Source: Fibrobacter sp. UWT2 (GTDB lineage Bacteria > Fibrobacterota > Fibrobacteria > Fibrobacterales > Fibrobacteraceae). Taken from it: 64,000 nt of DNA. Shown here one piece after another: positions 3,509-20,469 of the stretch. A program made the position numbers and the translations under genes. The stretch covers positions 124,001 to 188,000 of the forward strand of contig NZ_FRBF01000006.1 in assembly GCF_900142545.1 (NCBI RefSeq), written 5' to 3'. The notes beneath the pieces were generated by a model, which did not search any database, was not told where the DNA came from, and saw nothing but the letters and a program-made list of their open reading frames with translations. How positions within the stretch are numbered: position 1 is the stretch's first letter; each line of letters starts with the position of its first letter.

Positions 3509-5473
3509 ATGAAATTTCTTGAATCCCGCTATAAAAAGATTTCAGTAGCTGTCTCTGTTTTAGCTGCTTTGACCTGGACCCTTTCTTCTTGCGCTTCTAG
3601 CAAGCAGGAACCTGAAACGGCTCAGACCAATGTTGCAGCCGAAAGTCGTCCGCAGGCTCTTCCGCCTCAGCCCTCGACGCCAGTGACGGTGTTCGAAATG
3701 AAATTCTTAAGTGCAGACAAGCAGTTGCGCGTGGTCAACAAGCCCACGCTTGCAGCTTTGGATTTTGCAGCCTATTTCAACAATCCCATTCGCTTGGCGG
3801 GTAAAGAAGAAAAACCTGAAAACTACACAGGTAAAATGGCTTCGGCGAAGCTGACGGAATATCCGTTCCCGATGTTGGATTCGATTCAGGAATATGAACC
3901 GGCTGCGATTGAGGGCCGACAGCCTTTGGCTTGGGAACCGCTTGCGAAGATTCTTTATGCCCAGACGGGTAACGATTCTTTGGGCAGTGTATTGAATGCC
4001 GTTGAAGCGGTGAAGTGGGATGAACCCGATGTGTTCCGTGCTTTCCAGACTGTTTCTCGTATGTGGGGCGTACCCCTGAGCGATGGTTCCGTAGAATGGT
4101 GGGTCGAGGTGATGCCTGCTCATTGGACGGGACGTTCTGCTTTTTATGGCAAGCTGAAGTTGGCCTCTAGAGGTGAAACTGCTGAAATCTTGAATTACTA
4201 CTTGACCGGAGAAATGAACATTGACGATGCCATGAACTGGGCTCGTACTTTGTCTTCTTACTGGTATCCGACTTTGAATACGGACTTGGAACCCCATACG
4301 GCTGGTGCTCCGTGGGAAGGCGATGCCAATAGGCCTTTTGCCGTGATGCGCGGAAACCCGATGGGTACGCCGATGTGGATTGCTTTTGAAGTGCCTGCTT
4401 TCCGCTTGAGTGACGAAGCTTTGCGTGCCAAGCGTACGGCAGATTCCTTGGCCGAAGCGGGCGAAGTGGTGCCGGTCAATCGTACGCTCGATACGAATTC
4501 TGCGTTCAGACTCGAAACGCTTGCTTCGCTCGAAGGCTCCTGCCCCGAGAATGCCGCGACAAAAAAATTCCGCGATGTACTTGCGAAAAAACTCAAGAAA
4601 CTGCCGAAGGAACAGAATGCCTGGGCTGATGGCGATATGCTTTGGTTCAGACGCAACGCTAACTACTTGCTAGCAGATAAAATAACTAAGCAGGATTCCT
4701 TGCATAATCCGCTTCCGCGCTTGCTGGAACTCAAGAAGTATCTGGATTCCTTGAATGTGCAGCTCCTGGTGGTGCCGGTTCCGGTGAAAGAAGAAATTTA
4801 TGGTGAACGCCTAGTTAACGGTACGGCGGCTGACCTTTGCGTGAACCCCGCTGGTCGCGAATTTACCCGCGAAATGCTTGCCGCAGGCCTTGACGTGTTG
4901 GATCTTTACCCGGCCCTGATGGCGGCGAAGTCTGGCGATGAACCGCCGCATTACAGCTACCAGCGTTACGATACGCACTGGGCGCTTCCGGGAATGCTTG
5001 CTGCCATGGAACTCTTGGCTTCCCGCGTGACGCAGTATTCCTGGTACGCTGAATCGGGCGCTCAGCCGGGTTCGCTGAATATGCAAGAGACACAGACGCT
5101 TCGCGAAGGAGACTTGGTGGCTCATCTGCCCGATGCTGAAAAGTCGAAGTATCCGGCCGATACCTTGCCGGTCATGAAGATTTTCAAGGGCACCGAGGCT
5201 TACAAGGGCGGCAAGAATTCTCCGATCCTTTTGATGGGTGATTCGTTTACGGGTGTATTTGAATCCGTCGATCAAAAGAGCGGCGGTCCGGGCTCGCTTC
5301 TTGCTTACGCGACGGGGCTCGACGTGCAAGTGCTTACTAGCTGGGGCGGCGGCCCGGGCGTGTATCACCGTATGATGAAAATGAAGAAGGATATGCAGAG
5401 CAAGCGCCTCGTGATTTACATGATGACGGCTCGTGACTTCTGGCAATCTCCGATGGAGTGGGATGGTTTATAG
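3509..5473 (+). CDS. AlgX/AlgJ-like SGNH-domain lipoprotein
   Basis: A 654-residue predicted lipoprotein: the N-terminus ends in a lipobox (LSSC at about 25-28) followed by a Pro/Ala-rich spacer. The C-terminal ~300 residues resemble the SGNH-like domain of the alginate O-acetylation proteins AlgX/AlgJ: YDTHW near residue 488 supplies the Asp-x-His pair and GDSFTG near 577 the nucleophile Ser. Known members move acetyl groups onto exported polysaccharide in the periplasm. The N-terminal ~350 residues match nothing I recognise. It heads the plus-strand cluster whose next members are a transglutaminase-like protein and four lipoproteins that also end in SGNH-like domains. No MBOAT acyl-donor gene is visible nearby, so the acyl source, if any, is elsewhere. 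The stop codon is the first base triplet of a repeat. Confidence 0.75.
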   Translation: MKFLESRYKKISVAVSVLAALTWTLSSCASSKQEPETAQTNVAAESRPQALPPQPSTPVTVFEMKFLSADKQLRVVNKPTLAALDFAAYFNNPIRLAGKEEKPENYTGKMASAKLTEYPFPMLDSIQEYEPAAIEGRQPLAWEPLAKILYAQTGNDSLGSVLNAVEAVKWDEPDVFRAFQTVSRMWGVPLSDGSVEWWVEVMPAHWTGRSAFYGKLKLASRGETAEILNYYLTGEMNIDDAMNWARTLSSYWYPTLNTDLEPHTAGAPWEGDANRPFAVMRGNPMGTPMWIAFEVPAFRLSDEALRAKRTADSLAEAGEVVPVNRTLDTNSAFRLETLASLEGSCPENAATKKFRDVLAKKLKKLPKEQNAWADGDMLWFRRNANYLLADKITKQDSLHNPLPRLLELKKYLDSLNVQLLVVPVPVKEEIYGERLVNGTAADLCVNPAGREFTREMLAAGLDVLDLYPALMAAKSGDEPPHYSYQRYDTHWALPGMLAAMELLASRVTQYSWYAESGAQPGSLNMQETQTLREGDLVAHLPDAEKSKYPADTLPVMKIFKGTEAYKGGKNSPILLMGDSFTGVFESVDQKSGGPGSLLAYATGLDVQVLTSWGGGPGVYHRMMKMKKDMQSKRLVIYMMTARDFWQSPMEWDGL

Positions 5474-5520
5474 ACGAAAGAACGGCACTACGTGCCTACA
5501 GACGAAAGACGAGAGAGGAT
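5471..5520. repeat. GAGACGA-type repeat starting at a stop codon
   Basis: Begins TAGACGAAAG, where TAG is the stop of the AlgX-like gene, contains a small GGCACTACGTGCC palindrome, and ends ACGAAAGACGAGAGAGG just before the next gene. It fills nearly the whole gap and its last AGAGAGGA may serve as ribosome-binding site. Confidence 0.65.
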
Positions 5521-5530
5521 AAATTATAAA

Positions 5531-6295
5531 ATGAAAAGTCTTTTTTCTCTCTCGTCTCTCATCTCTCGTCTCTCGTCTAAATTTTTCTGGCCGGTGCTGA
5601 TTGTCGTTTTTGCGGCGTCACTAGCGCTGGTGCTTTGGAGCGGACAAGCCGAGAAAATGAGCTTCAAAGATGCGGCTTGTTCTTTCGAAGACAAGTTGCC
5701 GGGCTGCTTGGAGTCGGTGCCGGCGTGGAACGAGGGACTTGCTTTTTATGACAGTGCTTTGAAGGTCTCCGGTGATACCTTGCAGAGCTTGAAGGCTTTG
5801 CTTTGGGAACACTGGAGTCTGGAATTTGCCGGAGCGGGGAAGCCTGCGGTGGCGAAGAATTCCATATTGCCCTTACGCGTTCTTGAATCCCGAAAATCCG
5901 GTTGCATGGGCCTTTCTTGGCTTGCGATGATGGTGGCTGAATCTAGGCAGATTCCCCTCTCGGTTATCATGCTGCCGGGTCATGTGTTCCTGCGTTATGG
6001 GACGGAATCTACAACTGGAGTGAATTTGGAACCCAATCGAGAGGGGTATTCCTACACGGACGAAGAGTACCGCGAAAAGTATAAAAAGGGACCCTGGACT
6101 GGTCTTGAATTTAAACCGCTGACCCCCACGCAATTTGTGGGACTTGCCGCTTTTAACATGGGAAATTCCTATTTGGATAGCGATTTGCGTCGCGCCTTGA
6201 CATGGTACCGTATGGCCGAAGAATTCTTTTCGGAATATCCGGGGATAAAAGCCAATCAGGAAATCGCTAAAAGCCGCTTGCCAGACCACCTGTAG
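5531..6295 (+). CDS. Membrane-anchored transglutaminase-like protein
   Basis: A 254-residue protein with one N-terminal membrane segment (about residues 18-37) and an extracytoplasmic domain like the SirB1/Transglut_core2 group: SGCMGLSWLAMMVAESRQIP followed by LPGHVFLRYG and VNLEPNREG supply the Cys, His and acidic/Asn positions of a transglutaminase-type fold, near residues 132-175. The activity of this group is poorly known; a peptidase or cross-linking role in the envelope is possible. I chose the ATG at 5531 rather than 5492 because the earlier codons are repeat DNA and AGAGGA precedes 5531. Residues about 5-17 (SLSSLISRLSS) are themselves encoded by a repeat. It sits between the AlgX-like and TIGR02171 genes. 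Confidence 0.72.
   Translation: MKSLFSLSSLISRLSSKFFWPVLIVVFAASLALVLWSGQAEKMSFKDAACSFEDKLPGCLESVPAWNEGLAFYDSALKVSGDTLQSLKALLWEHWSLEFAGAGKPAVAKNSILPLRVLESRKSGCMGLSWLAMMVAESRQIPLSVIMLPGHVFLRYGTESTTGVNLEPNREGYSYTDEEYREKYKKGPWTGLEFKPLTPTQFVGLAAFNMGNSYLDSDLRRALTWYRMAEEFFSEYPGIKANQEIAKSRLPDHL
5546..5579. repeat. GAGACGA-type repeat (inverse orientation) in a signal anchor
   Basis: CTCTCGTCTCTCATCTCTCG-type sequence translated as SLSSLISRLSS at the start of the transglutaminase-like protein. It is the reverse complement of the unit seen at 5471-5520 and 35849-35880. Confidence 0.65.
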
Positions 6296-6318
6296 GCGAG
6301 AATTTTTCTTAAAAATAC

Positions 6319-6326
6319 TATTTTTA
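6319..6326 (+). promoter_or_regulatory. Promoter -7 box abutting the first TIGR02171 gene
   Basis: TATTTTTA ends 4 nt before the ATG at 6331. No Shine-Dalgarno is visible, so the four-gene TIGR02171 run could be started by its own leaderless promoter in addition to read-through from 3509. Confidence 0.45.
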
Positions 6327-6330
6327 GAAA

Positions 6331-9090
6331 ATGCGGATACTTGCATTTTTCTTTGTATCTTTAGTTCTTTTAGCGTGTTCGCAAGAGAGTGGATCTTCGA
6401 GCGCCATTGTCGTTGATTTTTCAGATGACGAATTAGAAGGCATGGTGCGTGTGACTGCACGAAATGCAAATGCCTTGCTAGGAACAAACGACCCTCTGGC
6501 CAAAACCGAAGAAACTCCTCAGATGAGGGTCAAAATCGACTATTCCTTTTCGATGGGAAAACACGAGGTCACCTGCGGCGAATTCAATAAGCTGATGAAA
6601 CCTCAGGGACTTGAGCTCCCGTGCGAAAACAAGAATATTCCGGCTACGGACTTGACTTATTATGATGCCGTTTTGTTTGCTAACGAAAAGAGTAAAGACG
6701 GTGATTTCGATACGGTGTACACTTATACAAGCAAGCAGATGGACACTGATGGCCATTGTACGTTCTTGGAAGGTTTTAATTTTCATCCGGATGTCAATGG
6801 CTACCGTTTGCCTACGGAAGCGGAATGGGTCTTGGTGGCGGGCCGCTACTGGAATCCTAAATCGGGGTGGCATTCCGAAAATTCGGGTATGAAACTACAT
6901 GAAGTCTGTACCCGCACAGAAAATAGCGAATTTTGCGACTTGGCGGGCAACGCCATGGAATGGGTGAATGACTGGCTTGGATTCTTTAGGGATACGACGG
7001 TTTACAATTATGCAGGTTCTCCAGACGGCGGAAACTTGGGCAAAAGAATCGTGAAAGGGGGAAGCTATCGCCAGCAGCCTTCTGCCATGCATCTCTATGG
7101 CCGTACTGACGTCTATACTATTACCTCTGCTAGCCGTGCCGATTATGTCGGCTTCCGTTTGGGCTTTGGAGCCATTCCTGATGCTGTATGGATGGACTAC
7201 AACGGCTTGGTGAATACGACGCGCGTGATTTCGTTGGTGAACCAACGTACGTTGAAATCTAAACTGGGTACCTACAAGGTTTTACTTGCGTTCAGAAACA
7301 ACGTCAGCGAAACTATGGCCTATCAGAACTATTCTGATGGTTCCATTTATACGGCAGAATTTCCGGATATCTATGAATCTTACCACCCTGAAATTTCTCC
7401 TAATGGCCGCTACATTGCCTATTGTTCGGGGCTTGAAGGTGTGTCGGGCAGTTCAAAGCTGTACGTAAGAGTGCTGACCTTGAATGAACACAATATCGTT
7501 GAATTGAATGTCAAGAGTGCGGCGATTCCCCGTTGGCGAGTCCTCGATAATGGGGATACGGTCATTGTTTATGTGACCGATGCCGGCAGTAACAAGAATA
7601 CTGAAACGTTCAAGTCTGCTTCGACTTGGCAGGTGAAGTTTGAAAAAGGCCGCTTTGGAGAGCCGAAAAAATTATTTGACGGTGCTTACCATGATGGTAT
7701 TAGCAGCGACAATAAATTGGCGGTTAGTGGTGCTCGCTTACTCCGTGCGAAGATGGCCGATTCCTCAAATACCTTGTCGAGTGGCCGCGATTCCGTATGG
7801 TACAACGGGGAACAGGCCTGCAACGCCTCCCTTGCTACGGATGGCTCCAAGAAAACGCTGTTCCTTGATTTTGGTAGCGAAACAGGAAAGAAGTTTGTAG
7901 GCGAATCTTATGGTGTTCATGAACGTTTGCTCGTCATGGATAGCACGGGTAAGCTGATCCATTCTGTCAAGGCTCCGGCGGGTTATTCTTTTGACCATAG
8001 CGAATGGGTTCGTGGCCGTTCGGATTTTGCCGTTGTGTCGCTCTCTGATGCTAACGGCATGCACAATAAGATTGCCCTTGTGAATGTGCTGGACAGCAGC
8101 ATTACGGAACTGGTGGAAGGTGAAGACCTGTGGCAACCGACTATGTGGATTCCGGATTCTTTCGACAAGTCTACTTCTGAACTCGATGAAGATAGTGCAG
8201 GCGTCTATATGCATATTGGCGATAAGCTGGAGGGCGTTTTGATGCGCTACAAGATGGAACTCCTGTGGCGTTATCGCGATACGGCCAATGTGGTCGTGGT
8301 GGGTTCTTCTCGTCCGTTACTTTCGGTATCTCCTAAATATTTTAGCTCCAAATATTTTGTCATCAATCTAGCGCAAACGCCTAATTCCATCTACATGACT
8401 AGGGATTACTTGAACAATTACATTTATCCCCATGTCCGTCGAATGAAATACATTATTCTGTCGCTGGATATCGACTTGTGGTACAAGGACAATGGTCCTA
8501 ACAGTGATAATTTCTTTGTGAAAGGTTATGAACAGTATGCCGGTTTTGTGTACGACAAGAATCACAACTACTGGCAGGATGGTTACCCGACAGGCCTTTT
8601 GGAATATACCGAAAACTACATTGGCGTCGAAGGGGAAGCCTATTATTTGGATGATCGTGGACGTTACCTCGCTTCGGATTGTAAGGCTTGGGGTGAACCG
8701 GACATTGAAATGGATTCGATGTATTATGACAAGCATCCTGAAGTCCTTGAAAATTCGATCGCCGTTTTGAAGGATATCTTGAAAAAGGCGGAAGAAAATA
8801 AGGTCTTTGTGGTCGGTGTGATTTTCCCGCAGAATCCCAAGTACAAAAAGACTGGTGCGTTTGGCCGTTATGGTGTTCGTAGAAGTCACGCAAAAAAGAT
8901 TATCCAGGATTTGATAGACCTTGAAAAAGATTATCCTCATTTTAAGGTGTTTGACCAGAACAAGATGGGCGACCACGATTACGATGATGACAAGGCGAAC
9001 GATTCCGACCATCTTTGCATGAAGGGTGCGGCAAAACTTTCGACTCGCGTTTATGAGTTTATTAAGACTTTGAAGGAAAAAGATGAATAG
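6331..9090 (+). CDS. TIGR02171-family tri-domain lipoprotein, copy 1
   Basis: A 919-residue lipoprotein (lipobox Cys16, ACSQESG). Three regions can be read. About 45-285 is an FGE/SUMF1-like fold (GKHEVTCGEFN, YRLPTEAEW, DLAGNAMEWVNDWLG, VKGGSY, DYVGFRLGFG). About 300-620 is a TolB/PD40-like beta-propeller (YHPEISPNGRYIAYCSG, STWQVKF near 430, FDHSEW near 553). About 645-919 is SGNH-hydrolase-like, with GSSR at 658-661 as the GDS-type nucleophile block and DHL at 893-895 as the DxxH-type block. The length, lipid anchor and sequence match what I know of the Fibrobacter paralogous family TIGR02171, function unknown. The FGE-type catalytic Cys pair is not evident, so that domain is probably for binding. 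The stop overlaps the next start by 8 nt. Confidence 0.85.
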   Translation: MRILAFFFVSLVLLACSQESGSSSAIVVDFSDDELEGMVRVTARNANALLGTNDPLAKTEETPQMRVKIDYSFSMGKHEVTCGEFNKLMKPQGLELPCENKNIPATDLTYYDAVLFANEKSKDGDFDTVYTYTSKQMDTDGHCTFLEGFNFHPDVNGYRLPTEAEWVLVAGRYWNPKSGWHSENSGMKLHEVCTRTENSEFCDLAGNAMEWVNDWLGFFRDTTVYNYAGSPDGGNLGKRIVKGGSYRQQPSAMHLYGRTDVYTITSASRADYVGFRLGFGAIPDAVWMDYNGLVNTTRVISLVNQRTLKSKLGTYKVLLAFRNNVSETMAYQNYSDGSIYTAEFPDIYESYHPEISPNGRYIAYCSGLEGVSGSSKLYVRVLTLNEHNIVELNVKSAAIPRWRVLDNGDTVIVYVTDAGSNKNTETFKSASTWQVKFEKGRFGEPKKLFDGAYHDGISSDNKLAVSGARLLRAKMADSSNTLSSGRDSVWYNGEQACNASLATDGSKKTLFLDFGSETGKKFVGESYGVHERLLVMDSTGKLIHSVKAPAGYSFDHSEWVRGRSDFAVVSLSDANGMHNKIALVNVLDSSITELVEGEDLWQPTMWIPDSFDKSTSELDEDSAGVYMHIGDKLEGVLMRYKMELLWRYRDTANVVVVGSSRPLLSVSPKYFSSKYFVINLAQTPNSIYMTRDYLNNYIYPHVRRMKYIILSLDIDLWYKDNGPNSDNFFVKGYEQYAGFVYDKNHNYWQDGYPTGLLEYTENYIGVEGEAYYLDDRGRYLASDCKAWGEPDIEMDSMYYDKHPEVLENSIAVLKDILKKAEENKVFVVGVIFPQNPKYKKTGAFGRYGVRRSHAKKIIQDLIDLEKDYPHFKVFDQNKMGDHDYDDDKANDSDHLCMKGAAKLSTRVYEFIKTLKEKDE

Positions 9091-11815
9091 GATCCTTTTA
9101 TTGCTGCTGGGCGTTTGTCTATTCGCCTGCTCCAATTCCGAAAGCGTGTATTCGCAGCATGATTCGGATCCTGTTCTTGCTGTTGATTCTTTAGACGGAA
9201 TGCTTTCTGTTCGATTGGAACAGAAGAAGTTGCATCTCGGTACAGACGAAACGGCGGCTAAGGCGAATGAACGCCCGCAAATGAAGGTCTTACTGAATTA
9301 CGATTTTTCAATTGGCAAGCATGAGGTGACTTGCCGTGAATTTAACGACTTAATGAAGTTGGCGGGCACTTCGCTGGATTGTGAAAGTGGAGATTTGCCG
9401 GCCACGAATTTGACTTACTACGATGCAGTCTTGTTTGCCAATGCCCGTAGCAAGGCCGAAGGCTTTGATACGGCTTACTCCTATACGGCTGCAGTTTTCG
9501 ATGCCGAAAAGCACTGCTCCAATTTGGAGGGCTTTGCATTCCACCCTGAAAAAGAAGGCTACCGTTTGCCGACGGAAGCGGAATGGACTTATGTGGCGAA
9601 TTTGAATTGGAGACCCGATTCTGCTTGGACTGCGGATAATTCTGGCTTTAAGCTGCATGAAGTTTGTCACTTTGCCTCTGCCGATGTGGATGTTTGCGAC
9701 ATGGCGGGTAACGCCATGGAGTGGGTAAATGACTGGCTTGGAGCATTCCGCGATACGACCGTGTCGAATTACGTGGGCGCTCCTGATGGCGGTTCGCTCG
9801 GCCAGCGCGTCGTGAAGGGTGGTAGCTACCGGAACGAGGCGCATTCCATTGCGCTTTATGCACGCGGAGACGTGTACACGGTGACTTCTTCGACGAAGGC
9901 CGACTATGTAGGCTTTCGTCTGGCCTTCGGTGCGATTCCCGATGCGACATGGATGAATTCCAATGGCGATGCTATGACAAGTCGAATTGTTCCCTTGGCG
10001 AATTCCTCTAGCATTCGCTCTCAAACAGGAACGTTCCGCTCGAAGTTGGTTTTCCGCAACGATTTAACAGGGAATCTGGCTTTTATCGATTATTCCAATA
10101 GCATTCTGTCGGTTGTTGAAATCGCCGATACGATTGATGCCTACCATCCTGAAATTTCTCCCGATGGCAAGAAAGTCGCTTTTTGCACCGGCCTCGAAGG
10201 TGTTTCTGGCAAGTCGTCGCTTTATGTCCGCGACTTGAATGGGGAAGGTTCGAATCTCGTCAAACTAGAGGTAGAATCTGCTGCGATTCCTCGTTGGCGC
10301 GTTCTTGAAAACGGCGACACGGTGATTGTTTATGTGACGAATGCCGGCAATAACAAGAACGAATCTTCTTTTAAGGAAACTTCGACTTGGCAGGTGAAAT
10401 TTGCTAAAGGCAAGTTCGGTAAGCCTGAAAAATTATTTGATGGCGCGTATCATGGCGGCATCAGTGAAGACGGCTCCTTGGCGGTGACCGGGGCAAGGCT
10501 ACTGCGTGCTCGAGTTTCAAGTCATGATACGGTGTGGTATAACGAAGAGCAGGCTTGCAATGCGTCCTTGGCGAAGGATAGTAGCAAGCGCACCTTGTTC
10601 CTTGATTTTGGCGGTAAGACCGGTCGTGACTACGTGGGTGAAGATTATAGTACCCATCAGAGGCTTTTAATTGCCGATAGCACAGGAAAGTTGATTGGCT
10701 CGGTAGAGGCTCCGGCGGGCTATACTTTTGACCATAGCGAATGGACTCTTGGTGGAAATGATCTTGCGGTAGCCACGTTGACCAATAGTGCTGGCGCTCA
10801 TACTAAAATCGTGCTGGTGAATTTGGCTAATGGGGAAGTGATGGATTTGGCCGAGGGTGACGAACTTTGGCATCCGAACTTTTGGTCTTTGCAAAATAGC
10901 GTGCTGAAAAACGTAACGCTGGATGTGGATAGCGCCGGCGTATACCTGGACGAAGACTTTGATGTGGGTGCCACCATATTGCGCTACAAGATTGAATTGG
11001 TGTGGACCTACCGAGATTGGGCGAATGTGGTGGTGCTTGGTTCTTCGCGCCCCCAGTCAGGAATTATTCCTGCAAAGATGCGTGATGAGTTCAAGACTAT
11101 AAATGTGACGAATGTGCCGAATATGGTCGCTTCTACGGAATTCATTGCGAAGAATTATGTATTCCCGCATGTGAAAAATTTGAAGTACCTTATTGTCTCC
11201 TTGGATATTGATTTGTGGCACAAGGATGAACATAGTGAATACAATTTCTTCTACCAGGATTACAAGAAGTATCCGGGATATGTCTACGACGAAAATCATG
11301 ATTTCTGGAAGAACGGTTACCCCGAAGGTTTGGCGGAACTGACCCAGAATACGTTAGGGCAGGAATACAACGAAAACTTGTTGCGCTCGACGTTGGGTTA
11401 TGTGCCCGGTGCCCCGGCCAATTGGGAAGAAAAACCTGCAGTGGAATTTGATAGCACCTGGATGGATTATTGGCCCGATCATTTCGAAGCGTCTCTTGAA
11501 CATTTGCAGAATGTTTTGAAAATGGCCGAGAATTACAATGTGAAGGTGATCGGCATTGTTTTCCCCCAGAGTCCGAATTTCAAGAAAACGGGCGCTTTTG
11601 GCCGTTATGGCGTTCGCAGAAGCGAGGCTCCGGCCTTGCTGAAACGAATCCAGAATCTAGAATCTGTCTACCCGAACTTTATTTTCTGGGATGAAAATAA
11701 AATGGGCGACCACGATTACGATGATTCAATGGCCAATAATAAGGACCATTTGAGCGATTTGGGGGCGCAACAGTTGACGGAACGGTTAAATTTATTGTTG
11801 GAAGGCTTGGAGTAA
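9083..11815 (+). CDS. TIGR02171-family tri-domain lipoprotein, copy 2
   Basis: A 910-residue paralog with lipobox ACSNSES. It has the same order of FGE-like region (GKHEVTCREFN, DMAGNAMEWVNDWLG, VKGGSYRN, DYVGFRLAFG), propeller (YHPEISPDGKKVAFCTG, AAIPRWRVLENGDTVIVYVT) and SGNH-like C-terminus (GSSR at 653-656, DHL at 888-890). The propeller is the best conserved part among copies; the 700-830 stretch has a copy-specific insert around NWEEKPAVEFDS. The start codon overlaps the end of copy 1 (ATGAATAG) with AAGGA upstream, indicating translational coupling. Function unknown; an outer-membrane or surface enzyme acting on glycan is an inference from the SGNH-like motifs and the neighbours. Confidence 0.85.
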   Translation: MNRILLLLLGVCLFACSNSESVYSQHDSDPVLAVDSLDGMLSVRLEQKKLHLGTDETAAKANERPQMKVLLNYDFSIGKHEVTCREFNDLMKLAGTSLDCESGDLPATNLTYYDAVLFANARSKAEGFDTAYSYTAAVFDAEKHCSNLEGFAFHPEKEGYRLPTEAEWTYVANLNWRPDSAWTADNSGFKLHEVCHFASADVDVCDMAGNAMEWVNDWLGAFRDTTVSNYVGAPDGGSLGQRVVKGGSYRNEAHSIALYARGDVYTVTSSTKADYVGFRLAFGAIPDATWMNSNGDAMTSRIVPLANSSSIRSQTGTFRSKLVFRNDLTGNLAFIDYSNSILSVVEIADTIDAYHPEISPDGKKVAFCTGLEGVSGKSSLYVRDLNGEGSNLVKLEVESAAIPRWRVLENGDTVIVYVTNAGNNKNESSFKETSTWQVKFAKGKFGKPEKLFDGAYHGGISEDGSLAVTGARLLRARVSSHDTVWYNEEQACNASLAKDSSKRTLFLDFGGKTGRDYVGEDYSTHQRLLIADSTGKLIGSVEAPAGYTFDHSEWTLGGNDLAVATLTNSAGAHTKIVLVNLANGEVMDLAEGDELWHPNFWSLQNSVLKNVTLDVDSAGVYLDEDFDVGATILRYKIELVWTYRDWANVVVLGSSRPQSGIIPAKMRDEFKTINVTNVPNMVASTEFIAKNYVFPHVKNLKYLIVSLDIDLWHKDEHSEYNFFYQDYKKYPGYVYDENHDFWKNGYPEGLAELTQNTLGQEYNENLLRSTLGYVPGAPANWEEKPAVEFDSTWMDYWPDHFEASLEHLQNVLKMAENYNVKVIGIVFPQSPNFKKTGAFGRYGVRRSEAPALLKRIQNLESVYPNFIFWDENKMGDHDYDDSMANNKDHLSDLGAQQLTERLNLLLEGLE

Positions 11816-11818
11816 GTC

Positions 11819-14557
11819 ATGAAACAAATTCTTTTTTGCATCACACTTTTGATGACGGCGTTCTTCGGAACGTCTTGCTCTAATTCGGAAAGTGTATCGT
11901 CATCTGGAGCTCCGGCGGAATTTAGCCAGGACACGCTTTCGGGCATGATTCGCGTTAAGGCGACAGACAAGAAAGTTTCCCTGGGCACGAACGAAGCTTC
12001 TGCGAAGGCGAATGAACGCCCGGTTATGCAGGTGAGCTTTGATTACGATTTTTCGATTGGTAAGCATGAAGTGACTTGCAGCGAGTTCAATGAACTGATG
12101 CCGTCTTCTACGGGGCTGACGCTTGCTTGCGAAAACGGTGATTTGCCGGCGGCCGATTTGACTTATTACGATGCGGTTCTATTTGCCAACGCTCGCAGCA
12201 AGGCCGAAAATCTCGATACGGCTTATACTTATGTCAACGCCTCTTTTGATGCTGAAAAGCATTGCACGAACTTGGAAGGTTTTGCCTATCATCCCGAGGT
12301 TGCAGGCTATCGCTTGCCGACAGAAGCTGAATGGATTTATGTGGCTTCGCTTGATTGGAATGTTAAAAAAGCGTGGCTCGCAGAAAATTCGGATTACCAG
12401 TCCCATGAAGTATGCTCCATCAAGGCGTCCGAAAATAGCCCCTGCGACATGATCGGTAACGTGATGGAATGGGTGAATGACTGGTTGGGCTATTTCCGCG
12501 ATACGACGGTGCAGAATTATGTGGGTGCCCCTGATGCCAATGCCGTTGGGCAACGTGTGGTGAAGGGCGGAAGCTTCCGCAATGCCGAAAAATCCGTTAC
12601 GCCGTATTCTCGCGGCGATGTGTATACGGTGACATCAGCCACTAGGGCCAACTATGTGGGCTTCCGTTTGGCTTATGGTGTTATTCCGAATGCGGTTTGG
12701 CTGAATTCTAGCGGAAACGCTGTTGTAAGCCGAATTGTGTCTTTGGTGAATTCTTCGACGATTCGTTCGCTGACGGGAACTTACCGCACAAAACTCGCTT
12801 TCCGTAACGATGTTTCTGGAAATCTTGCTTTTGTTGATTTTTCGGGCGGAACGAATTCGGTCGTTGAAATTAACGATACGCTCGAAGTATATCATCCCGA
12901 GATTTCTCCTAATGGCAAAAAGGTCGCCTTCTCTACGGGCTTTGAAGGTGTTGCTGGCAAGTCGGCGCTTTATGTTCGCGACTTGAATGCGAAGGGCTCG
13001 AACCTTGTCAAGCTTGAGGTAGAATCTGCCGCGATTCCCCGCTGGAGAATCCTTGAAAATGGCGATACGGTGATTGTCTATGTGACGGATGCCGGAAACA
13101 ACAAAGATGAAGCTTCCTTTAAATCGGCTTCGACGTGGCAGGTCAAATTTGCGGACAACAAGTTCGGAACTCCGGAAAAACTCTTTGACGGAGCGTTCCA
13201 TGGCGGCATTAGCGAAGACAATACGCTTGCTGTTACGGGTGCTAGACTTTTGCGGGCTCGCGTGGATGGCGAAAATGAAGTTTGGTACAATGGAGAACAG
13301 GCTTGCAACGCTTCTTTGTCTAAAGATAGCAGCAAGCGGACTTTGTTCCTCGATTTCGGCAGCAAGACCGGTCGCGCTTTTGTGGGTGCCAATTATGGAA
13401 CTCATGAACGCCTTTTGGTCGCCGATGCCCAAGGAAACTTGATCCAGTCGGTGGCGGCACCGGCGGGATATTCCTTTGATCATAGCGAATGGGTTAGCGG
13501 CGGTAACGACTTGGTGGTTGCGACGCTTACAAACGCCGATGGCGCTCACAAGAAGATTGTCGCCGTGAACTTGGCAGATAGCTCTGTTATGGAACTGACG
13601 GAAGGTGATGAACTTTGGCACCCCTGTTTGTGGCAACAGAAGAACGCTTCGTCCGGCGAAGACGATTTCTTGAATTTGGATAGCGCCGGTGTTTACCTGT
13701 CTGAAAATCATGAAATCGAACAAGCCCGTTTCCGTATCAAGTTGGAACTTTTCTGGAAGAACCTTGATTCCATAAAGGTGTTCTTTGCGGGAAGTTCCCG
13801 AATGGAAATGGGGGTGTATCCTGACATTTATCCTGAATGGGGAATGTTCAATTTTGGCGTTACCGGCATTGACCCGAAGCGAGACTTCTACTTCGTGAAA
13901 AACTACGCCTTGAATCATTTGAAGAATTTGAAGGCGATTGCAGTTTCTATTGATTTGGACGGCTGGCGTGGCAATGAAAACCATCTGGGCTTGGTCTTGA
14001 GTTCGGGAGTGGGGTATGCTTACGACGCCAATCATGATTTCTGGAAGGATGGTCTGCCTGCCGGCTTTATCGAGGCGGTAGAAAATGGATTCCCCGCCGA
14101 AGAAGAGGAAGTCGTCAACTTCTCGCCGCGTGGAGGATTGCAGCCGCTTTCCAATGGCTGGACATTTAATGGAATTGAAATCCTTGCGGATTCCGTTTTT
14201 AAAGAAACAGAAATGTCCTATTTGAATGAGCGCATTGATGAATTGAAAGAAATTGTCAAGATTGCTTCGGAAAGAAATATTTATGTCATCGGAATTATGT
14301 TCCCGCAGGCTCCGCAGTACAAGAATACGGGAGCTTATGGCCTGTATGGCATGCAGAGAAGTGTGGTGAAAAAAATTATTGCCCAGTTGAATACCTATGC
14401 CGATGAAGAACCCTACTTTATTTTGATGGACGAAAATAAAATGGGGGATCATGATTATACGGACGATATGGCGCAAAACCGCGATCACTTGAGTTATGCG
14501 GGGGCGCAACAGATGACGGCTCGTGTTGAATCTCTATTGAGATCACTTAAATGGTGA
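11819..14557 (+). CDS. TIGR02171-family tri-domain lipoprotein, copy 3
   Basis: A 912-residue paralog with lipobox SCSNSES. The FGE-like region (GKHEVTCSEFN, DMIGNVMEWVNDWLG, VKGGSFRN) and propeller (YHPEISPNGKKVAFSTG, AAIPRWRILENGDTVIVYVT) track copies 2 and 4 closely. The C-terminal domain is the most different of the four in the operon: GSSRMEMGVYP (GSSR at 658-661), IDLDGW where copies 1, 2 and 4 have DIDLW or DIDFW, and an acidic insert EEEEV near 760; the DHL block is kept at 889-891. Its start is 3 nt after the stop of copy 2. The split between a constant N-terminal two thirds and a divergent C-terminal third suggests a change of ligand or substrate. Confidence 0.85.
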   Translation: MKQILFCITLLMTAFFGTSCSNSESVSSSGAPAEFSQDTLSGMIRVKATDKKVSLGTNEASAKANERPVMQVSFDYDFSIGKHEVTCSEFNELMPSSTGLTLACENGDLPAADLTYYDAVLFANARSKAENLDTAYTYVNASFDAEKHCTNLEGFAYHPEVAGYRLPTEAEWIYVASLDWNVKKAWLAENSDYQSHEVCSIKASENSPCDMIGNVMEWVNDWLGYFRDTTVQNYVGAPDANAVGQRVVKGGSFRNAEKSVTPYSRGDVYTVTSATRANYVGFRLAYGVIPNAVWLNSSGNAVVSRIVSLVNSSTIRSLTGTYRTKLAFRNDVSGNLAFVDFSGGTNSVVEINDTLEVYHPEISPNGKKVAFSTGFEGVAGKSALYVRDLNAKGSNLVKLEVESAAIPRWRILENGDTVIVYVTDAGNNKDEASFKSASTWQVKFADNKFGTPEKLFDGAFHGGISEDNTLAVTGARLLRARVDGENEVWYNGEQACNASLSKDSSKRTLFLDFGSKTGRAFVGANYGTHERLLVADAQGNLIQSVAAPAGYSFDHSEWVSGGNDLVVATLTNADGAHKKIVAVNLADSSVMELTEGDELWHPCLWQQKNASSGEDDFLNLDSAGVYLSENHEIEQARFRIKLELFWKNLDSIKVFFAGSSRMEMGVYPDIYPEWGMFNFGVTGIDPKRDFYFVKNYALNHLKNLKAIAVSIDLDGWRGNENHLGLVLSSGVGYAYDANHDFWKDGLPAGFIEAVENGFPAEEEEVVNFSPRGGLQPLSNGWTFNGIEILADSVFKETEMSYLNERIDELKEIVKIASERNIYVIGIMFPQAPQYKNTGAYGLYGMQRSVVKKIIAQLNTYADEEPYFILMDENKMGDHDYTDDMAQNRDHLSYAGAQQMTARVESLLRSLKW

Positions 14558-17427
14558 TAGCTCTCCTCATATTGCTTCCTTTTCTGATTTGCTCTTGCTC
14601 CAATTCAGAGCAGGAAGCCGATATGGTTGAGCCCCTTCCGATTGCAGAAGAAATTACTCCCGATACATTGTCCGTTGATTCCTTGAAAACGGATTCTCTT
14701 CCGAAAGACACCCTTCTAAAAGACACCCTTCCAGAGGATTCTATTCCCGAAGAAACTGTTCTTGCAGATTCGCTTCAAGAGGAAGTTGAAAAAGTCGATA
14801 CTCTTGAAGGAATGTGGAGCGCCAAGGCGACTGGGGCTGTCGTTTCGCTGGGTACCGATGAAAATGTCCGCGCGATTGATCGCCCCCTGATGCAAGTGAA
14901 GTTGAATTATGACTTCTTTATTGGCCGTCACGAAGTTACCTGCGCTGAATTCAATGCCCTGATGAAATCGGCGACGGGTCTTTCGCTGGAATGCGAAGAC
15001 GCAAATTTACCGGTGACGAACTTGACTTATTACGATGCGGTGCTTTTCGCCAATGCCCGCAGCAAGGCGGATAGCCTAGATACCGTCTATACTTATTCGT
15101 CTGCAAAATTTGACGATGAAAAACATTGTATAAGCCTCGAAGGCTTTGCGTTTCGCCCAGAGGTAAAGTCTTATCGCCTGCCCACCGAAGTGGAATGGGT
15201 ATATGCGGCCCGCCAGAACTGGAACTTGCGAGAGGCTTGGACGGCCGAAAATTCAGGGTACAAATTGCACAATGTCTGTAGCAAGGCTGTTCCCAGTACG
15301 GCTGTTTGCGATATGGCCGGCAATGCCATGGAATGGGTGAATGATTGGTTGGGCTCATTCCAGAAAACGACGGTCAGTAATTATGTGGGCGCTCCCGATG
15401 GCGGTTTTCTGGGGCAACGCGTTGTAAAGGGAGGTTGCTATCGGAATGCGGCTTCGTCGATAACGCTGTACGGCCGCGGCGATGTCTATACGGTAACTTC
15501 TTCTACTCGGGCTGACTATGTTGGCTTTCGCTTGGCCTACGGGGCAATACCTGATGCCGTATGGATGGGCGACAATGGTAAGGCTGCATCTAGCAGAATC
15601 ATTCTCCTTGCGAATTCTTCGACGCTGGAAAGCTTGACAGGTACCTTCAAGGCGAAGCTTGCTTTCCGCAACGACATTTCGGGGAACTTGGCTTATGTGG
15701 ATTATTCTAGCGGCGTACAGTCGGTGGTTGAAATCGAAGACAGTATCGAAGTGTTTCATCCGGAGATTTCTCCTGACGGCAACCATGTCGCGTTCTGCAC
15801 CGGTTTAGAGGGCCTTTCTGGAAAGTCTTCTCTCTATGTTCGCGATTTAGATGCGACGGGTTCTCATCTAGTAAAGCTTGATGTCGAAAGTGCGGCTATT
15901 CCGCGCTGGCGGATTCTTGAAAGCGGCGATACTGCCATTGTGTATGTGACGGACGCTGGTAACAATAAAGATGAATCTGCATTTCACACGGCGTCTACCT
16001 GGCAGGTGGTTTTTGCAAACGGCCAGTTCGGAGTTCCGCAGAAACTTTTCGATGGCGCTTATCATGGGGGCGTTAGCAAGGACGGTAATCTTGCTGTAAC
16101 GGGTGCTCGACTTCTTCGGGCGAATGTCTCTGGCCAAGAGTCGGTGTGGTACAATGGGGAACAGGCCTGCAATGTTTCCTTGGCGAAAGATGGTAGCAAA
16201 CGTACCTTGTTCCTGGATTTTGCAAGTAAGTCTGGCCGCGACTTTGTCGGCAAACGATACGGCACTCACGAACGATTGCTTGTGGCCGATAGTACGGGAA
16301 AGCTGGTGCAGTCTGTAGGAGCTCCGAACGGGTTTACCTTTGACCATAGCGAATGGGCTGGAGACCTCAATTTGGCCGTAGCAACTCTTGCCGATGCCAA
16401 CGGGGCTCATCGCATGATTACTCTGATGAACCTGTCCGACAGCAGCTTTGTGGAACTTGCCGAGGGTGATGAACCCTGGCATCCGAGTCTGTGGGTGAAA
16501 CCCAAAGAATCACCTGTGAATTCGGGTTTGGACTTGGATAGTGCTGGTGTTTATATGTATCCCGATGATGATATGGGTTCCATTTTGATGCGCTATAATA
16601 TGGAACTTTTGTGGCGCTATCGTGATACGGCGAATGTTGCCATTTTAGGTTCTTCTCGTCCGTTAAATTCGTTGTCGCCGAGTCATTTGTCTCCGGAATT
16701 TTTTGCCATTAATCTTGCGCATATCCCAAATTCCATTTACTCATCTCGCGATTATCTAAAAAAATATCTCTTGGCTCATCTGAAAAAATTGAAGTATCTC
16801 GTTGTGTCGTTGGATATTGATTTTTGGTGGAAGATTGCTGGCGAATATAGCGATAATTTCTTTGAGGTGACTTATAAAAAATACCCAGGATATGTATATG
16901 ACGAAAATCATGGATATTGGAGTGACGGTTACCCTGAAGGCTTGCTGCAATGCACGCATAATTCCATTTCTGTAGCGGATAGCAAGCCGTTCTTGCAAGA
17001 TCGTGGACGCTATACGAATTCTTATTGCGTCGCGTGGGGGGATCCTCCTGAATTTTCAGTAGATTCAACTTATTTCGATGACAAGATTTATTTGATCAAA
17101 GATTGTCTTTCTGCATTAAAAGAAATAATAGAATTGGCTCAAGAACGAGGCATTTACGTTGTGGGGATGATTTTCCCTCAAAATCCGAGGTATAAGGAAT
17201 CTGGAGCCTTTGGCCGTTACGGAATGCGTCGAAGTATGGCGATGTCCTTGATTGAACAGTTCCAAAAGTACGAGACAGAGTATTCCAACTTTAGATTTTT
17301 TGATGAAAATAAAATGGGCGATCACGATTATTCGGATGATGAAGCTTTAGATACCGATCATTTGTGTTACAAAGCTGCCCCTAAAATTACCTCACGACTG
17401 GATTCGTTGCTGAAAACCTTGGAATGA
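14551..17427 (+). CDS. TIGR02171-family tri-domain lipoprotein, copy 4, with long spacer
   Basis: A 958-residue paralog with lipobox SCSNSEQ. It is longer because of an acidic spacer after the lipid anchor (about residues 30-85) made of imperfect short repeats such as LPKDTLLKDTLPEDSIPEE, which could push the folded domains away from the membrane. FGE-like and propeller regions match copies 2 and 3, but the SGNH-like domain (GSSR at 700-703, DHL at 936-938) is closest to copy 1: both share LLWRYRDTANV, SIY..RDYL and a DRGRY...C.AWG insert. This mismatch points to recombination between paralogs. The start overlaps the stop of copy 3 by 7 nt and the stop overlaps the next gene by 4 nt. Confidence 0.85.
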   Translation: MVIALLILLPFLICSCSNSEQEADMVEPLPIAEEITPDTLSVDSLKTDSLPKDTLLKDTLPEDSIPEETVLADSLQEEVEKVDTLEGMWSAKATGAVVSLGTDENVRAIDRPLMQVKLNYDFFIGRHEVTCAEFNALMKSATGLSLECEDANLPVTNLTYYDAVLFANARSKADSLDTVYTYSSAKFDDEKHCISLEGFAFRPEVKSYRLPTEVEWVYAARQNWNLREAWTAENSGYKLHNVCSKAVPSTAVCDMAGNAMEWVNDWLGSFQKTTVSNYVGAPDGGFLGQRVVKGGCYRNAASSITLYGRGDVYTVTSSTRADYVGFRLAYGAIPDAVWMGDNGKAASSRIILLANSSTLESLTGTFKAKLAFRNDISGNLAYVDYSSGVQSVVEIEDSIEVFHPEISPDGNHVAFCTGLEGLSGKSSLYVRDLDATGSHLVKLDVESAAIPRWRILESGDTAIVYVTDAGNNKDESAFHTASTWQVVFANGQFGVPQKLFDGAYHGGVSKDGNLAVTGARLLRANVSGQESVWYNGEQACNVSLAKDGSKRTLFLDFASKSGRDFVGKRYGTHERLLVADSTGKLVQSVGAPNGFTFDHSEWAGDLNLAVATLADANGAHRMITLMNLSDSSFVELAEGDEPWHPSLWVKPKESPVNSGLDLDSAGVYMYPDDDMGSILMRYNMELLWRYRDTANVAILGSSRPLNSLSPSHLSPEFFAINLAHIPNSIYSSRDYLKKYLLAHLKKLKYLVVSLDIDFWWKIAGEYSDNFFEVTYKKYPGYVYDENHGYWSDGYPEGLLQCTHNSISVADSKPFLQDRGRYTNSYCVAWGDPPEFSVDSTYFDDKIYLIKDCLSALKEIIELAQERGIYVVGMIFPQNPRYKESGAFGRYGMRRSMAMSLIEQFQKYETEYSNFRFFDENKMGDHDYSDDEALDTDHLCYKAAPKITSRLDSLLKTLE

Positions 17428-18899
17428 TAATAGCTGTTTTTGTCATACTGCTTGCGATTTTCCCGCTGACCGATACCGACATCTGGTGGCATTTGGCTTG
17501 TGCACGCGAGTGGGTGACAACATGGACTCCCGTCCGCACGCCTGTTGTGAATGTGCATGAATACTTTCAGCTGGTGGTAGGCTTTATCTATGGCTTAGGT
17601 GGTGCTCCGCTCTTGGTGGCCTTCAAGGCCTTTTTATGGGGCGTAGTTTTCGCCCTGTTCCTCCGCCCCCGTCATGCCGCACGTCATGCTGAACGTCACC
17701 CTGAACTTGTTTCAGGGTCAGCATCAGCTTTTCCTGCCCTAACCATTATTCTTCTTTTCATTTTCCGCTACCAGTTTGAGATGCGCCCGGTGCTTTTTTC
17801 TCTGTTGTTCCTCGGCGTTTATTGGAATGTGCTTCCGTGGCTAGCTAAAGAATGGCGCGAATCTCGGTTCAGCGTAAAGCTGATGGCTTGCACTGTGTTA
17901 ATTCTTGCGATTCAGTGGCTTTGGTGCAAGTGCCAGGGACTTTATATCTTGGGCCCGATTTTTGCAACATTAGTATTATGCGCCAATTTACTTGAATCTA
18001 AAAAGCATCGTGCGCTCCGTGTGAAATTTGCCTGGCCACAAGTGGCTTTTATTTTGCTTCTTTGGTTGATGCCGTTTTTGCATCGAGAAGGTTTGGCCTT
18101 GTTCCTGTATCCGTTTGGCCTGCTGGATCGTTTGCTTGGCCTTACGCCTTCTGCTGCAGTATTTGCAAGTCAAATCGCCGAGAACCGTTCTCCCATAACG
18201 CTTTTGGTGGCGGGGGAGAACAGGATCGTTTCGGCGGCAATGATTGTGCTGAGCTTTGCAGGAATGGGACTTGCTGCTTGGCGATTGTATAAGGCTCGCA
18301 GGCCCGATGTCTTGAATGTGACATTATTGGTAATGGCGAGTCTCGCCCTTATTGCCGAACGAAACTTTGTGCTGTTCTTGCCGGTGTTTTTGGCAATGTT
18401 GCCTACATTCTCAAAGCAACCGAAGGTTGCGACCTCATCCCTCATTCCTCGCGTCCATCTTCCTACTGTCTACTGCCTACTTCCTACCTTTTTCATTCTC
18501 GGTCTCTGGGCTCGTTCCCTTTCGGCTTACGATTATTCTATGGTCGCCTACCAGCGTGTACCTGTGCAAGCCGCAGAATGGATGGCGAAACACCCCCATT
18601 CGGGCAAGCTGTTTAACGACGACCGTGCCGGCGGTTACTTGGCGCTAATGAACCCGGCCGATTCCATTTACATTGATGGCCGATTCATCCTTAAAACGGC
18701 TGATTTCTTTGAGCGGTATCTAGATTACGCCAAAGATCCTGCCTTGTTTATGCGTGACGCTGATTCCTTAAGCATTGACCGCGCCTTATTCCCGCTGCAG
18801 TACTACGCTCGTTGGGATGAACTGATGCTCGCCCTTAATCAAGATTCCCGCTGGCATCTGGTTTACCGCGACGAATACTTCGTTGTGTTTGATAGATAA
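17424..18899 (+). CDS. Polytopic membrane protein, GT-C-like
   Basis: A 491-residue protein with roughly ten hydrophobic segments, an early DTDIWWHLACAREWV motif and a soluble C-terminal ~110 residues with GKLFNDDRAGGYLALMNPAD and YIDGRF. This plan (acidic motif in the first outer loop, many membrane segments, small C-terminal domain) is typical of uncharacterised GT-C-like membrane proteins related to lipid-phosphosugar-dependent glycosyltransferases; the activity is inferred only. ATGA overlap with TIGR02171 copy 4 makes it the last gene of the cluster. Two dispersed repeats are read in frame: one gives RHAERHPELVSGSASA (about residues 87-102), the other LPTVYCLLPTFF (about 346-357). Confidence 0.7.
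   Translation: MIIAVFVILLAIFPLTDTDIWWHLACAREWVTTWTPVRTPVVNVHEYFQLVVGFIYGLGGAPLLVAFKAFLWGVVFALFLRPRHAARHAERHPELVSGSASAFPALTIILLFIFRYQFEMRPVLFSLLFLGVYWNVLPWLAKEWRESRFSVKLMACTVLILAIQWLWCKCQGLYILGPIFATLVLCANLLESKKHRALRVKFAWPQVAFILLLWLMPFLHREGLALFLYPFGLLDRLLGLTPSAAVFASQIAENRSPITLLVAGENRIVSAAMIVLSFAGMGLAAWRLYKARRPDVLNVTLLVMASLALIAERNFVLFLPVFLAMLPTFSKQPKVATSSLIPRVHLPTVYCLLPTFFILGLWARSLSAYDYSMVAYQRVPVQAAEWMAKHPHSGKLFNDDRAGGYLALMNPADSIYIDGRFILKTADFFERYLDYAKDPALFMRDADSLSIDRALFPLQYYARWDELMLALNQDSRWHLVYRDEYFVVFDR
17671..17726. repeat. GTCATGCTGAAC...CAGGGTCAGCATC palindromic repeat inside a gene
   Basis: Contains CACCCTGAACTTGTTTCAGGGT, a hairpin with CCCTGAA/TTCAGGG arms, flanked by GTCATGC units. It is translated as HPELVSGS, a peptide often seen where this widespread bacterial repeat invades genes. 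Confidence 0.7.
18459..18487. repeat. TAGGCAGTAGACAGTAGGAAG-type repeat inside a gene
   Basis: CTTCCTACTGTCTACTGCCT followed by ACTTCCTAC, translated as LPTVYCLLPT in the GT-C-like protein. The same unit, in intergenic position, lies at 23379-23442 and 53932-53962. Confidence 0.7.
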
Positions 18900-18927
18900 A
18901 AAAAGGTCCGACCCGAAGGTCGGACCT
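18898..18927 (-). terminator. Rho-independent terminator of the GH5 gene
   Basis: Inverted repeat AGGTCCGAC (18904-18912) / GTCGGACCT (18919-18927), loop CCGAAG. On the minus strand it is followed by a run of seven T (18898-18904). It may also stop plus-strand transcription leaving the envelope cluster, although that side is not T-rich. Confidence 0.8.
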
Positions 18928-18953
18928 CTCATCTCTCTCTCGTTTGATTGGAT

Positions 18954-20441
18954 TTACTTAATCTGGAAGGCGCGAACCATATTGGTTGTCTTGTCGTGGA
19001 TTCGTGCGAAGTACTTGCCGGCAGGGAACTTGGCGAGCGAAAGCGAACCACTCACGTTGTCGATTGCCATAATCTTATTGCCCATCATGCTGTAAACTTC
19101 AACAGTCATGGGGGCTCCTGCGATATGCAATGCGTTGTCCGAGAAGCTCACGTTGAAGTTCACGCTAGCCTTTGCGAAAATCGGGACTTCGTTGCCACCT
19201 TGGTTGTTGTTTCCGTTGTTGTTACCTTGATTGTTGTTCCCGTTCTGATTATTGTTGCCGCCGTTTTGGTTGTTATTTTCGCCGTTATTATTGTTTTCGT
19301 TTTGATTCTGATTATTGTTGCCGTCGCCCTGGCTTTGATTGTTGTTGTTGACAGCGCACTTGGTGTAGCTGGCGGGGTTGGTAGAAAGGTAGCCCTTCAC
19401 CAGGTTGCCAGAGGTCGTGTACTGGAGCGAAGTCTTGGTAGAGGAACCTTCAAATGCGGCGGTACCTTCGCTGATCTTGGATGCAGACCAGTTTGCCCAA
19501 GAAAGCTGATACTTGTTCACGTATTCCTGCCAGCTCTGGTTGCGGCCCTGGTCCGGATTTCCGGCACCGCTTGCATCAGCCGTGCCCCATTCCGAAATGA
19601 ACACGGAGAGCCCTGCTTTGATCGCCTTTTCACCCTTGACGCCTTCGCTTTCGCCGCCCCAACTGTAATTGCCTGCCCAGTTGTGGCTGTTGGCGTAGTA
19701 GTGCAAGGTGTAAGCGGTATTTTTCTTGGGATCGTTCACTTCGTTGCCGATAGCGTCAGACGGGTTCTGGTCCCAAGAGGGGTTGCCCACGAGTACCAGG
19801 TTGTCGGAATACTGGCGAATGACTTCGATCACTTGGTTTGCGTAGTTCTTGACATCGCTCCAAGGAATCTGCTGTGGTTCGTTATAGACTTCGAAAATCA
19901 CGTTGTCGTACTTACCGTATGTCTCGGCCATTTCTTTAAAGAAATTCTTGGCCGCATCGGTCTGCTTGTGGGCTTCGTGGGAATGCCAGTCAATAATCAC
20001 GTAAATGTCGTTCTTGATAGCGGCTTCGACGACGGTCTTGACAAATTGCTTCTGGTGTTCGGAGTCAATGGCGTAACCCTTGAGCTGGATTCCGTTCCAT
20101 TCTCCCTTCCAGTCTTCGTTGCCGGTAGCCATGGCGGCGCGCACGATCTGGATTTTCATGTCGTTCACCATGGTGGAGATGCCTTCTTCGCTCCAGAATT
20201 CCAGTGCCTGGGGCATCAAGCTCCAGTAAAGGCTCATACCGCGCACCTGAACTTCGGCACCATCTTTAACACCTTCGCAGCTGCCGTAAATGCGGCCTTG
20301 TCCCTGCGAGTTCTTGCCGGTCATCAGCTGGCCATATTGGCTAACGGGGCCAACGCGGGTGGGGGTGATATCTTGGGCGGTGGCAAGCGTTGCGCACAGT
20401 GCCAAAGATGCCAATAGTGCGGATATGGATAAAGTTTTCAT
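18954..20441 (-). CDS. GH5 endoglucanase with Asn-rich linker and C-terminal tail domain
   Basis: A 495-residue secreted cellulase. Signal peptide about 1-22; GH5 catalytic domain about 25-362 with acid/base Glu188 in VYNEP, nucleophile Glu284 in FISEWG, and the usual HS(H) segment DWHSHEAH (151-158). It should hydrolyse internal beta-1,4-glucan bonds. A ~54-residue linker of Asn, Gln and Gly (about 365-418) joins it to a C-terminal domain (FNVSFSDNALHIAGAPMTVEVY ... GKYFARIHD, given here in part) that resembles type IX secretion tails. It is divergent from the GH8 gene with a shared 208-bp control region and ends at a strong terminator. Confidence 0.93.
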   Translation of the reverse strand: MKTLSISALLASLALCATLATAQDITPTRVGPVSQYGQLMTGKNSQGQGRIYGSCEGVKDGAEVQVRGMSLYWSLMPQALEFWSEEGISTMVNDMKIQIVRAAMATGNEDWKGEWNGIQLKGYAIDSEHQKQFVKTVVEAAIKNDIYVIIDWHSHEAHKQTDAAKNFFKEMAETYGKYDNVIFEVYNEPQQIPWSDVKNYANQVIEVIRQYSDNLVLVGNPSWDQNPSDAIGNEVNDPKKNTAYTLHYYANSHNWAGNYSWGGESEGVKGEKAIKAGLSVFISEWGTADASGAGNPDQGRNQSWQEYVNKYQLSWANWSASKISEGTAAFEGSSTKTSLQYTTSGNLVKGYLSTNPASYTKCAVNNNNQSQGDGNNNQNQNENNNNGENNNQNGGNNNQNGNNNQGNNNGNNNQGGNEVPIFAKASVNFNVSFSDNALHIAGAPMTVEVYSMMGNKIMAIDNVSGSLSLAKFPAGKYFARIHDKTTNMVRAFQIK

Positions 20442-20461
20442 AGAACATCCCTCTTTTTTAC

Positions 20462-20469
20462 CGAAAATA
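20462..20469 (-). promoter_or_regulatory. Candidate promoter box for the GH5 gene
   Basis: TATTTTCG on the minus strand, 20 nt before the start codon, followed by GAGGG as Shine-Dalgarno. One mismatch to TAnnTTTG. Confidence 0.35.

Follow-up and report, generated by a model that had tools for sequence, protein, structure and literature searches.

What task could require seven closely packed envelope genes, four of which encode large lipoproteins of a single family, in a gut bacterium of the genus Fibrobacter? The question is raised by a 64,000-nucleotide stretch of the Fibrobacter sp. UWT2 genome (contig NZ_FRBF01000006.1, positions 124,001 to 188,000; hereafter the window, to which all positions refer). 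Between positions 3509 and 18899 its plus strand carries genes for an AlgX-like lipoprotein (AlgX1), a transglutaminase-like protein (TG), four TIGR02171 lipoproteins (T1 to T4) and a polytopic membrane protein (GTC). An initial annotation, made from the sequence alone, had named these seven genes, all of which are present, and had read them as a surface-glycan or glycoprotein tailoring system specific to Fibrobacter. We find that the run is a real, co-transcribed-looking gene set with conserved linkage. In the reading that we favour, to which we assign a probability of about 0.62, it makes up most of an MBOAT-SGNH O-acylation system whose genes are dispersed and which is coupled to a glycosyltransferase of the GT-C fold and acts on an exported glycan or glycoprotein.

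Linkage to an acyl-shuttle MBOAT

Family membership, folds, residue conservation, gene linkage and co-loss are shown here by sequence analysis or structure prediction. AlgX1 (3509-5473) is a lipoprotein with an LSSC lipobox, in which about 380 N-terminal residues precede a C-terminal AlgX/AlgJ-type SGNH domain. This domain matches Pfam ALGX (1.6e-18, residues 389-617), and the AlgX1 profile retrieves AlgJ (4o8v, 3.2e-10), PatB1 and AlgX from the PDB; the N-terminal region, searched alone, gave no Pfam match and no known family. The DTH and GDS(F/Y)TG motifs are invariant in 21 orthologs, as are Asp488/His490 and Ser579, which constitute the Ser-His-Asp catalytic set of an SGNH partner. TG (5531-6295, its ATG at 5531 being better placed than a GTG at 5492) is a membrane-anchored Transglut_core2 (SirB1-like) protein (Pfam 5.2e-10). 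Because Cys126, His152 and Asn166/Glu168 (numbered from 5528) are kept in 14 orthologs, it is possible that TG has a cysteine-type catalytic function. The family assignments first proposed for both proteins are thus borne out.

We read the neighbourhoods of GTC in 40 stretches from this and related genomes and at 53 loci from a one-genome-per-species collection. The linkage does not arise by chance: a TIGR02171 gene lies directly before GTC at 41 of the 53 loci and directly after it at 3 more, although many of these genomes are congeneric and not independent. The gene order is AlgX1-TG-T(1 to 4)-GTC in Fibrobacter and AlgX1-TG-GTC-T in the F. intestinalis type. In other groups the locus mostly lacks TIGR02171 genes, but AlgX1, TG and GTC still occur together in many genomes. 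Deep-branching Fibrobacterota (for example, L088 and L067) have MBOAT-AlgX2-AlgX1-TG-GTC in one run, where AlgX2 is a second AlgX-like protein, and in several more genomes MBOAT, AlgX2 and AlgX1 are neighbours on single contigs. It appears that MBOAT-AlgX2-AlgX1-TG-GTC was the ancestral unit and that TIGR02171 genes were recruited to it in Fibrobacter and its near relatives. The conserved linkage that the initial annotation anticipated is therefore real, but the system is not specific to Fibrobacter, because its core of AlgX1, TG and GTC with an MBOAT and a second AlgX occurs across the phylum.

In Fibrobacter sp. UWT2 the orthologous AlgI-type MBOAT gene is located on the same contig (C6), 8.6 kb upstream of AlgX1 and 5.1-6.5 kb before the window (L106:9498-10916), and AlgX2 is on another contig (C5; L107). 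The MBOAT matches PF03062 at 1.2e-26. With the in-operon MBOATs of the deep lineages it shares 52-57% identity, compared with 30-36% for the second MBOAT of the genome; the two share 34% identity with each other. It contains a WHG motif and a terminal FLYFQF, both of which recur in five in-operon orthologs. FLYFQF fits FxYxxF, the acyl-shuttle motif of MBOAT-SGNH pairs (PMC12148441).

In a set of 80 congeneric genomes, the genes for MBOAT, AlgX1, GTC and TIGR02171 proteins are found together (Fisher p about 1e-11 to 1e-17, uncorrected for kinship). A gyrA tree, with two incomplete genomes set aside, indicates about three losses of GTC, every one of them accompanied by loss of MBOAT. In most GTC-less genomes the AlgX1 query gave no match, and because elsewhere in the genus this query also finds AlgX2, AlgX2 has probably been lost too. 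The gyrA frame itself contains one in-frame TAG in two sister genomes (L200 of G108 and L202 of G073).

A predicted GT-C fold for the polytopic protein

GTC (17424-18899; 491 residues) is a polytopic protein with a C-terminal soluble domain. Its sequence has no match in Pfam, NCBIfam or the PDB, and its assignment consequently rests on the structure model, which upholds the GT-C-like character initially suggested for it. The AlphaFold model (predicted local distance difference test, pLDDT, 88; predicted template modelling score 0.88) confidently presents GTC as a GT-C-fold glycosyltransferase, most like oligosaccharyltransferases and DPY19. Foldseek ranks the C-mannosyltransferase DPY19 (1.5e-5), archaeal AglB (5e-5) and eukaryotic STT3 at the top, with E values from 1.5e-5 to 9e-4. 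A second structural comparison gave STT3B (Z 15.7), AglB (Z 15.1) and ArnT (Z 10.8); all of ranks 1-46 are GT-C enzymes or oligosaccharyltransferase domains, with Z falling from 15.7 to 7.1 before an unrelated chain first appears at Z 5.8. Residues 373-491 fit the globular C-terminal domain of AglB-S2 (Z 8.8, root-mean-square deviation 2.8). Residues conserved throughout the phylum include D19 (in TDTDIWWH), H45, Q49, R121, Q171, E253-N254, R313-N314, G403-G404 and D418/R420.

STT3, AglB, PglB and DPY19 are thus the known enzymes that GTC most resembles, in that they include its best full-length structural matches, the C-terminal domain among them, and in that GTC has a D-x-D near its start (TDTD). 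Unlike STT3, AglB and PglB, it is shorter, lacks WWDYG in both sequence and alignment, and has no match to Pfam STT3 (PF02516), a family with no match anywhere in its own genome. We make no claim that GTC belongs to GT66, because profile comparison with a genuine STT3 of the phylum was negative. A likeness by eye between FNDDRAGGYL...IDGR of GTC and WWDYGSWI...IDGH of STT3 had no statistical support and was not used.

Three-domain lipoproteins of the TIGR02171 family

T1 (6331-9090), T2 (9083-11815), T3 (11819-14557) and T4 (14551-17427) score 1201-1289 bits for TIGR02171, whose cut-off is 544. The close spacing noted at the outset for the last five genes of the run measures -8 nucleotides at T1/T2, +3 at T2/T3, -7 at T3/T4 and -4 at T4/GTC. 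A fifth lipoprotein of the family, T5 (24213-26909, plus strand), is encoded beyond the run and a further one on contig C19, bringing the genome to six full TIGR02171 genes. The GSSR and DHL motifs reported for T1 to T4 are present in each, and also in T5.

The initial annotation was silent on two of the three domains of these proteins. In the AlphaFold model of T2 (pLDDT 89.5), residues 31-285 form an FGE-like domain with structural matches to TvpA (Z 27), FGE (Z 21) and PorK (Z 20.7), residues 303-604 form a TolB-like propeller (Z 22 to TolB), and residues from about 620 to 910 form the SGNH domain, which is confidently modelled in the whole-protein model. T1 has the same three-part architecture. 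The closest solved structure to the N-terminal domain by profile is TvpA of Treponema denticola (2y3c, E 7.1e-25), whose solved chain, in contrast to the TIGR02171 proteins, comprises only the FGE-like kind of domain. We looked for the catalytic cysteine pair of FGE in the KGGSYRN...GFRL segment of T2 and found no cysteine there; the sole cysteine in this segment across T1 to T5 is a single one in T4 (KGGCYRN). Because the catalytic pair is missing, as it is from the FGE-like domain of PorK (PMC12421860), this domain is non-catalytic and probably serves in binding or docking. PorK, GldK and GldJ of the type IX secretion system are likewise lipoproteins with such a cysteine-free FGE-like domain (PMC12421860), but the TIGR02171 proteins differ from them in the added propeller and SGNH domains and in their gene neighbourhood.

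That the C-terminus is of SGNH type, as first proposed, is supported by profile-profile alignment with standalone SGNH proteins (hhalign 98.6%, E 6.6e-16, 241 columns), compared with 0.3% for an unrelated control. These standalone homologues are proteins of 300-330 residues encoded beside MBOAT genes in the same phylum, and they weakly match the DUF1574 and GDSL families. Of the top DltD matches from the phylum, the majority of those checked for reading frame are TIGR02171-type C-termini, some of them above the Pfam cut-off; another, L175, is a different, GDSL-like protein. Profile comparison of the TIGR02171 SGNH domain with the AlgX1 family was negative, and the two are therefore separate SGNH types.

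All 49 sequences compared share Ser655 and His889 (T2 numbering), and the residue preceding the histidine (H-1) is Asp in 44 of 44. The usual Asp of the DxxH motif (H-3) is kept in T1 and T4. In T2, T3 and T5 it is replaced by Asn, so the catalytic activity of these three copies is, judged by sequence, uncertain. Since the copies differ most in their SGNH part (mean identity 39%, against 53-55% for the other domains), the differing specificities suggested for the copies are plausible. Six TIGR02171-like paralogs (L173, L174, L176, L177, L179 and L181) combine an H-3 Asp with N, S or G at H-1, inverting the pattern of the main family.

The searched literature contained no function for TIGR02171 and no description of FGE-propeller-SGNH lipoproteins, and the passages retrieved from the F. 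succinogenes proteomics and genome papers do not discuss these cluster proteins. Nor did we find a description of MBOAT-SGNH and GT-C proteins combined with a transglutaminase-like protein. The earlier statement that no such system had been described thus holds in part. MBOAT-SGNH acylation is known (PMC12148441, PMC4148444), as are GT-C glycosyltransferases; the combination and the three-domain lipoprotein architecture are new.

Proposed mechanism, its weaknesses and its rivals

We infer the substrate, acyl type, location and activity of the system as follows. The AlgI-like MBOAT would draw on acyl-CoA in the cytoplasm to charge the Tyr of its C-terminal FLYFQF with an acyl group, probably acetyl; AlgX2 and AlgX1 would take it onto the SGNH serine in the periplasm and pass it to the glycan, AlgJ and AlgX being an example of two SGNH proteins that divide such work (PMC4148444). 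GTC would use a polyprenyl-linked donor to build the glycan on, or transfer it to, an acceptor in the periplasm, which may be a growing glycan or a protein. The TIGR02171 lipoproteins, probably in the outer membrane, may bind the product or partner proteins through their FGE-like and propeller domains, and in the copies with an intact triad the SGNH domain may add or move acyl groups. TG may process or link a protein component. The tailoring role in the initial annotation therefore gains support from the orthologous AlgI-type MBOAT, from its co-loss with the cluster and from the GT-C fold, while remaining conditional as to what is tailored.

Among known systems, that for alginate (AlgI/AlgJ/AlgF/AlgX) is similar in combining an MBOAT with two PF16822 SGNH proteins that carry DTH and GDS motifs, and in the AlgJ and AlgX structures that the AlgX1 profile matches. 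It differs in that AlgX1 has its long N-terminal region ahead of the SGNH domain, in the added TG, GT-C and TIGR02171 partners, and in that no alginate synthesis genes were noticed in the neighbourhoods read (no genome-wide search was made). The PatA/PatB, DltB/DltX/DltD and WssHI systems likewise have an MBOAT with WHG and a C-terminal FxYxxF together with SGNH partners, and some TIGR02171 C-termini score as DltD-like. Here, by contrast, there are several SGNH proteins of two types, one of them fused to FGE-like and propeller domains, and the genes are spread over three loci.

Several observations weigh against the acylation reading. The MBOAT and AlgX2 of this genome lie outside the run. Only three independent co-loss events are available, for which the sign test gives 0.25 and no significance can be reached, so we treat co-loss as supporting evidence only; moreover, the presence or absence of MBOAT in that analysis was called from a bimodal split of E values, and in two genomes of one loss clade (G066 and G132) a TIGR02171 gene persists although the other genes are gone. 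The ranked structural matches of the whole T2 model list no SGNH fold, the other two domains having filled the list. Position H-3 of the TIGR02171 SGNH domain is Asp in 18 of 44 sequences, Asn in 24 and Gly in 2, which suggests that either the H-1 Asp substitutes for it or many copies are inactive as enzymes. Alignment of GTC with an STT3 of the phylum (hhalign 0.2%) detected no sequence homology, and the searched literature held no experiment demonstrating acylation in Fibrobacter.

A more specific proposal, which we regard as tentative and unlikely as it stands, is that GTC acts as the catalyst in a so far unrecognised bacterial pathway of protein glycosylation of the oligosaccharyltransferase type, in which the MBOAT and the SGNH proteins (AlgX and TIGR02171) add acyl groups to the protein-bound glycan while it travels to the outer membrane. 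If true, this would explain the glycosylated cellulose-binding proteins that have been reported from F. succinogenes, such as a 180-kDa glycoprotein (Gong et al. 1996, as cited in PMC6851124).

Of the explanations that compete with O-acylation, the one that survives best, although we consider it improbable, is that the SGNH lipoproteins are esterases rather than acyltransferases and remove acyl groups, either from plant cell-wall polysaccharide at the surface of the cell or from the glycan of the cell itself. SGNH domains serve both directions, cellulase genes of GH5- and GH8-like type lie just past the run, and acetyl esterases of other families are present in F. succinogenes (PMC3079729). 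However, linkage and co-loss connect the cluster to an acyl-shuttle MBOAT and a GT-C enzyme, both of which are biosynthetic, the closest homologues identified for the SGNH domain are encoded next to MBOATs, and the core occurs beyond the family too, in lineages throughout the phylum.

More doubtful again is the idea that the TIGR02171 proteins have a chiefly structural role, as lipoproteins of a complex for secretion or surface assembly, comparable to PorK, GldK and GldJ, with the SGNH domain reduced to a degenerate binding module. It would accommodate the PorK-like, cysteine-free FGE-like domain (PMC12421860), the propeller as a protein-docking fold, the loss of the DxxH aspartate from more than half of the copies, and the type IX system inferred in F. 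succinogenes (PMC6851124). It accords poorly with the invariance of the SGNH Ser and His, with the location of the genes between AlgX1-TG and GTC, and with an FGE-like domain whose match to TvpA is stronger than that to PorK.

We give least credence to the view that the module merely O-acetylates peptidoglycan or lipopolysaccharide in the PatA/PatB or AT3-SGNH manner, with GTC an ordinary ArnT-like transferase of lipid A or O-antigen sugars, because to our knowledge such systems use fewer SGNH types per system and because GTC, though it also aligns to ArnT, aligns better to oligosaccharyltransferases and DPY19, C-terminal domain included. It could draw on the match of the AlgX1 profile to PatB1, an SGNH acetyltransferase of secondary cell-wall polysaccharide, and on an O-antigen that varies with growth substrate in F. 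succinogenes (PMC6851124).

The O-acylation reading places TIGR02171, a large lipoprotein family of the Fibrobacterota, in one system with a GT-C enzyme and a scattered MBOAT, and so suggests a function, open to testing, for a set of otherwise unexplained envelope genes in a leading cellulose degrader. It also has implications for how these bacteria make and decorate the surface sugars and glycoproteins to which a role in cellulose binding is attributed.

Rfam and tRNA scans gave no match within the run, and promoter-like matches, being no more than expected from shuffling (20 against 17.8), were not used. Between GTC and a convergent GH5 gene lies a strong 13-pair hairpin (18901-18930) that is terminator-like on the minus strand. 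The GH5-like (minus strand) and GH8-like (plus strand) cellulase genes occupy 18954-22098, immediately 3' of the run, and the C-termini of both proteins resemble a type IX sorting domain. They are followed by a standalone TolB/PD40 propeller protein (22176-23381); single-propeller genes of this kind adjoin GTC or TG in several other genomes. Further on, 30614-34272 encodes two tandem paralogous secreted proteins, probably glycoside hydrolases of the xylanase type, the second of which has a carbohydrate-binding-like region.

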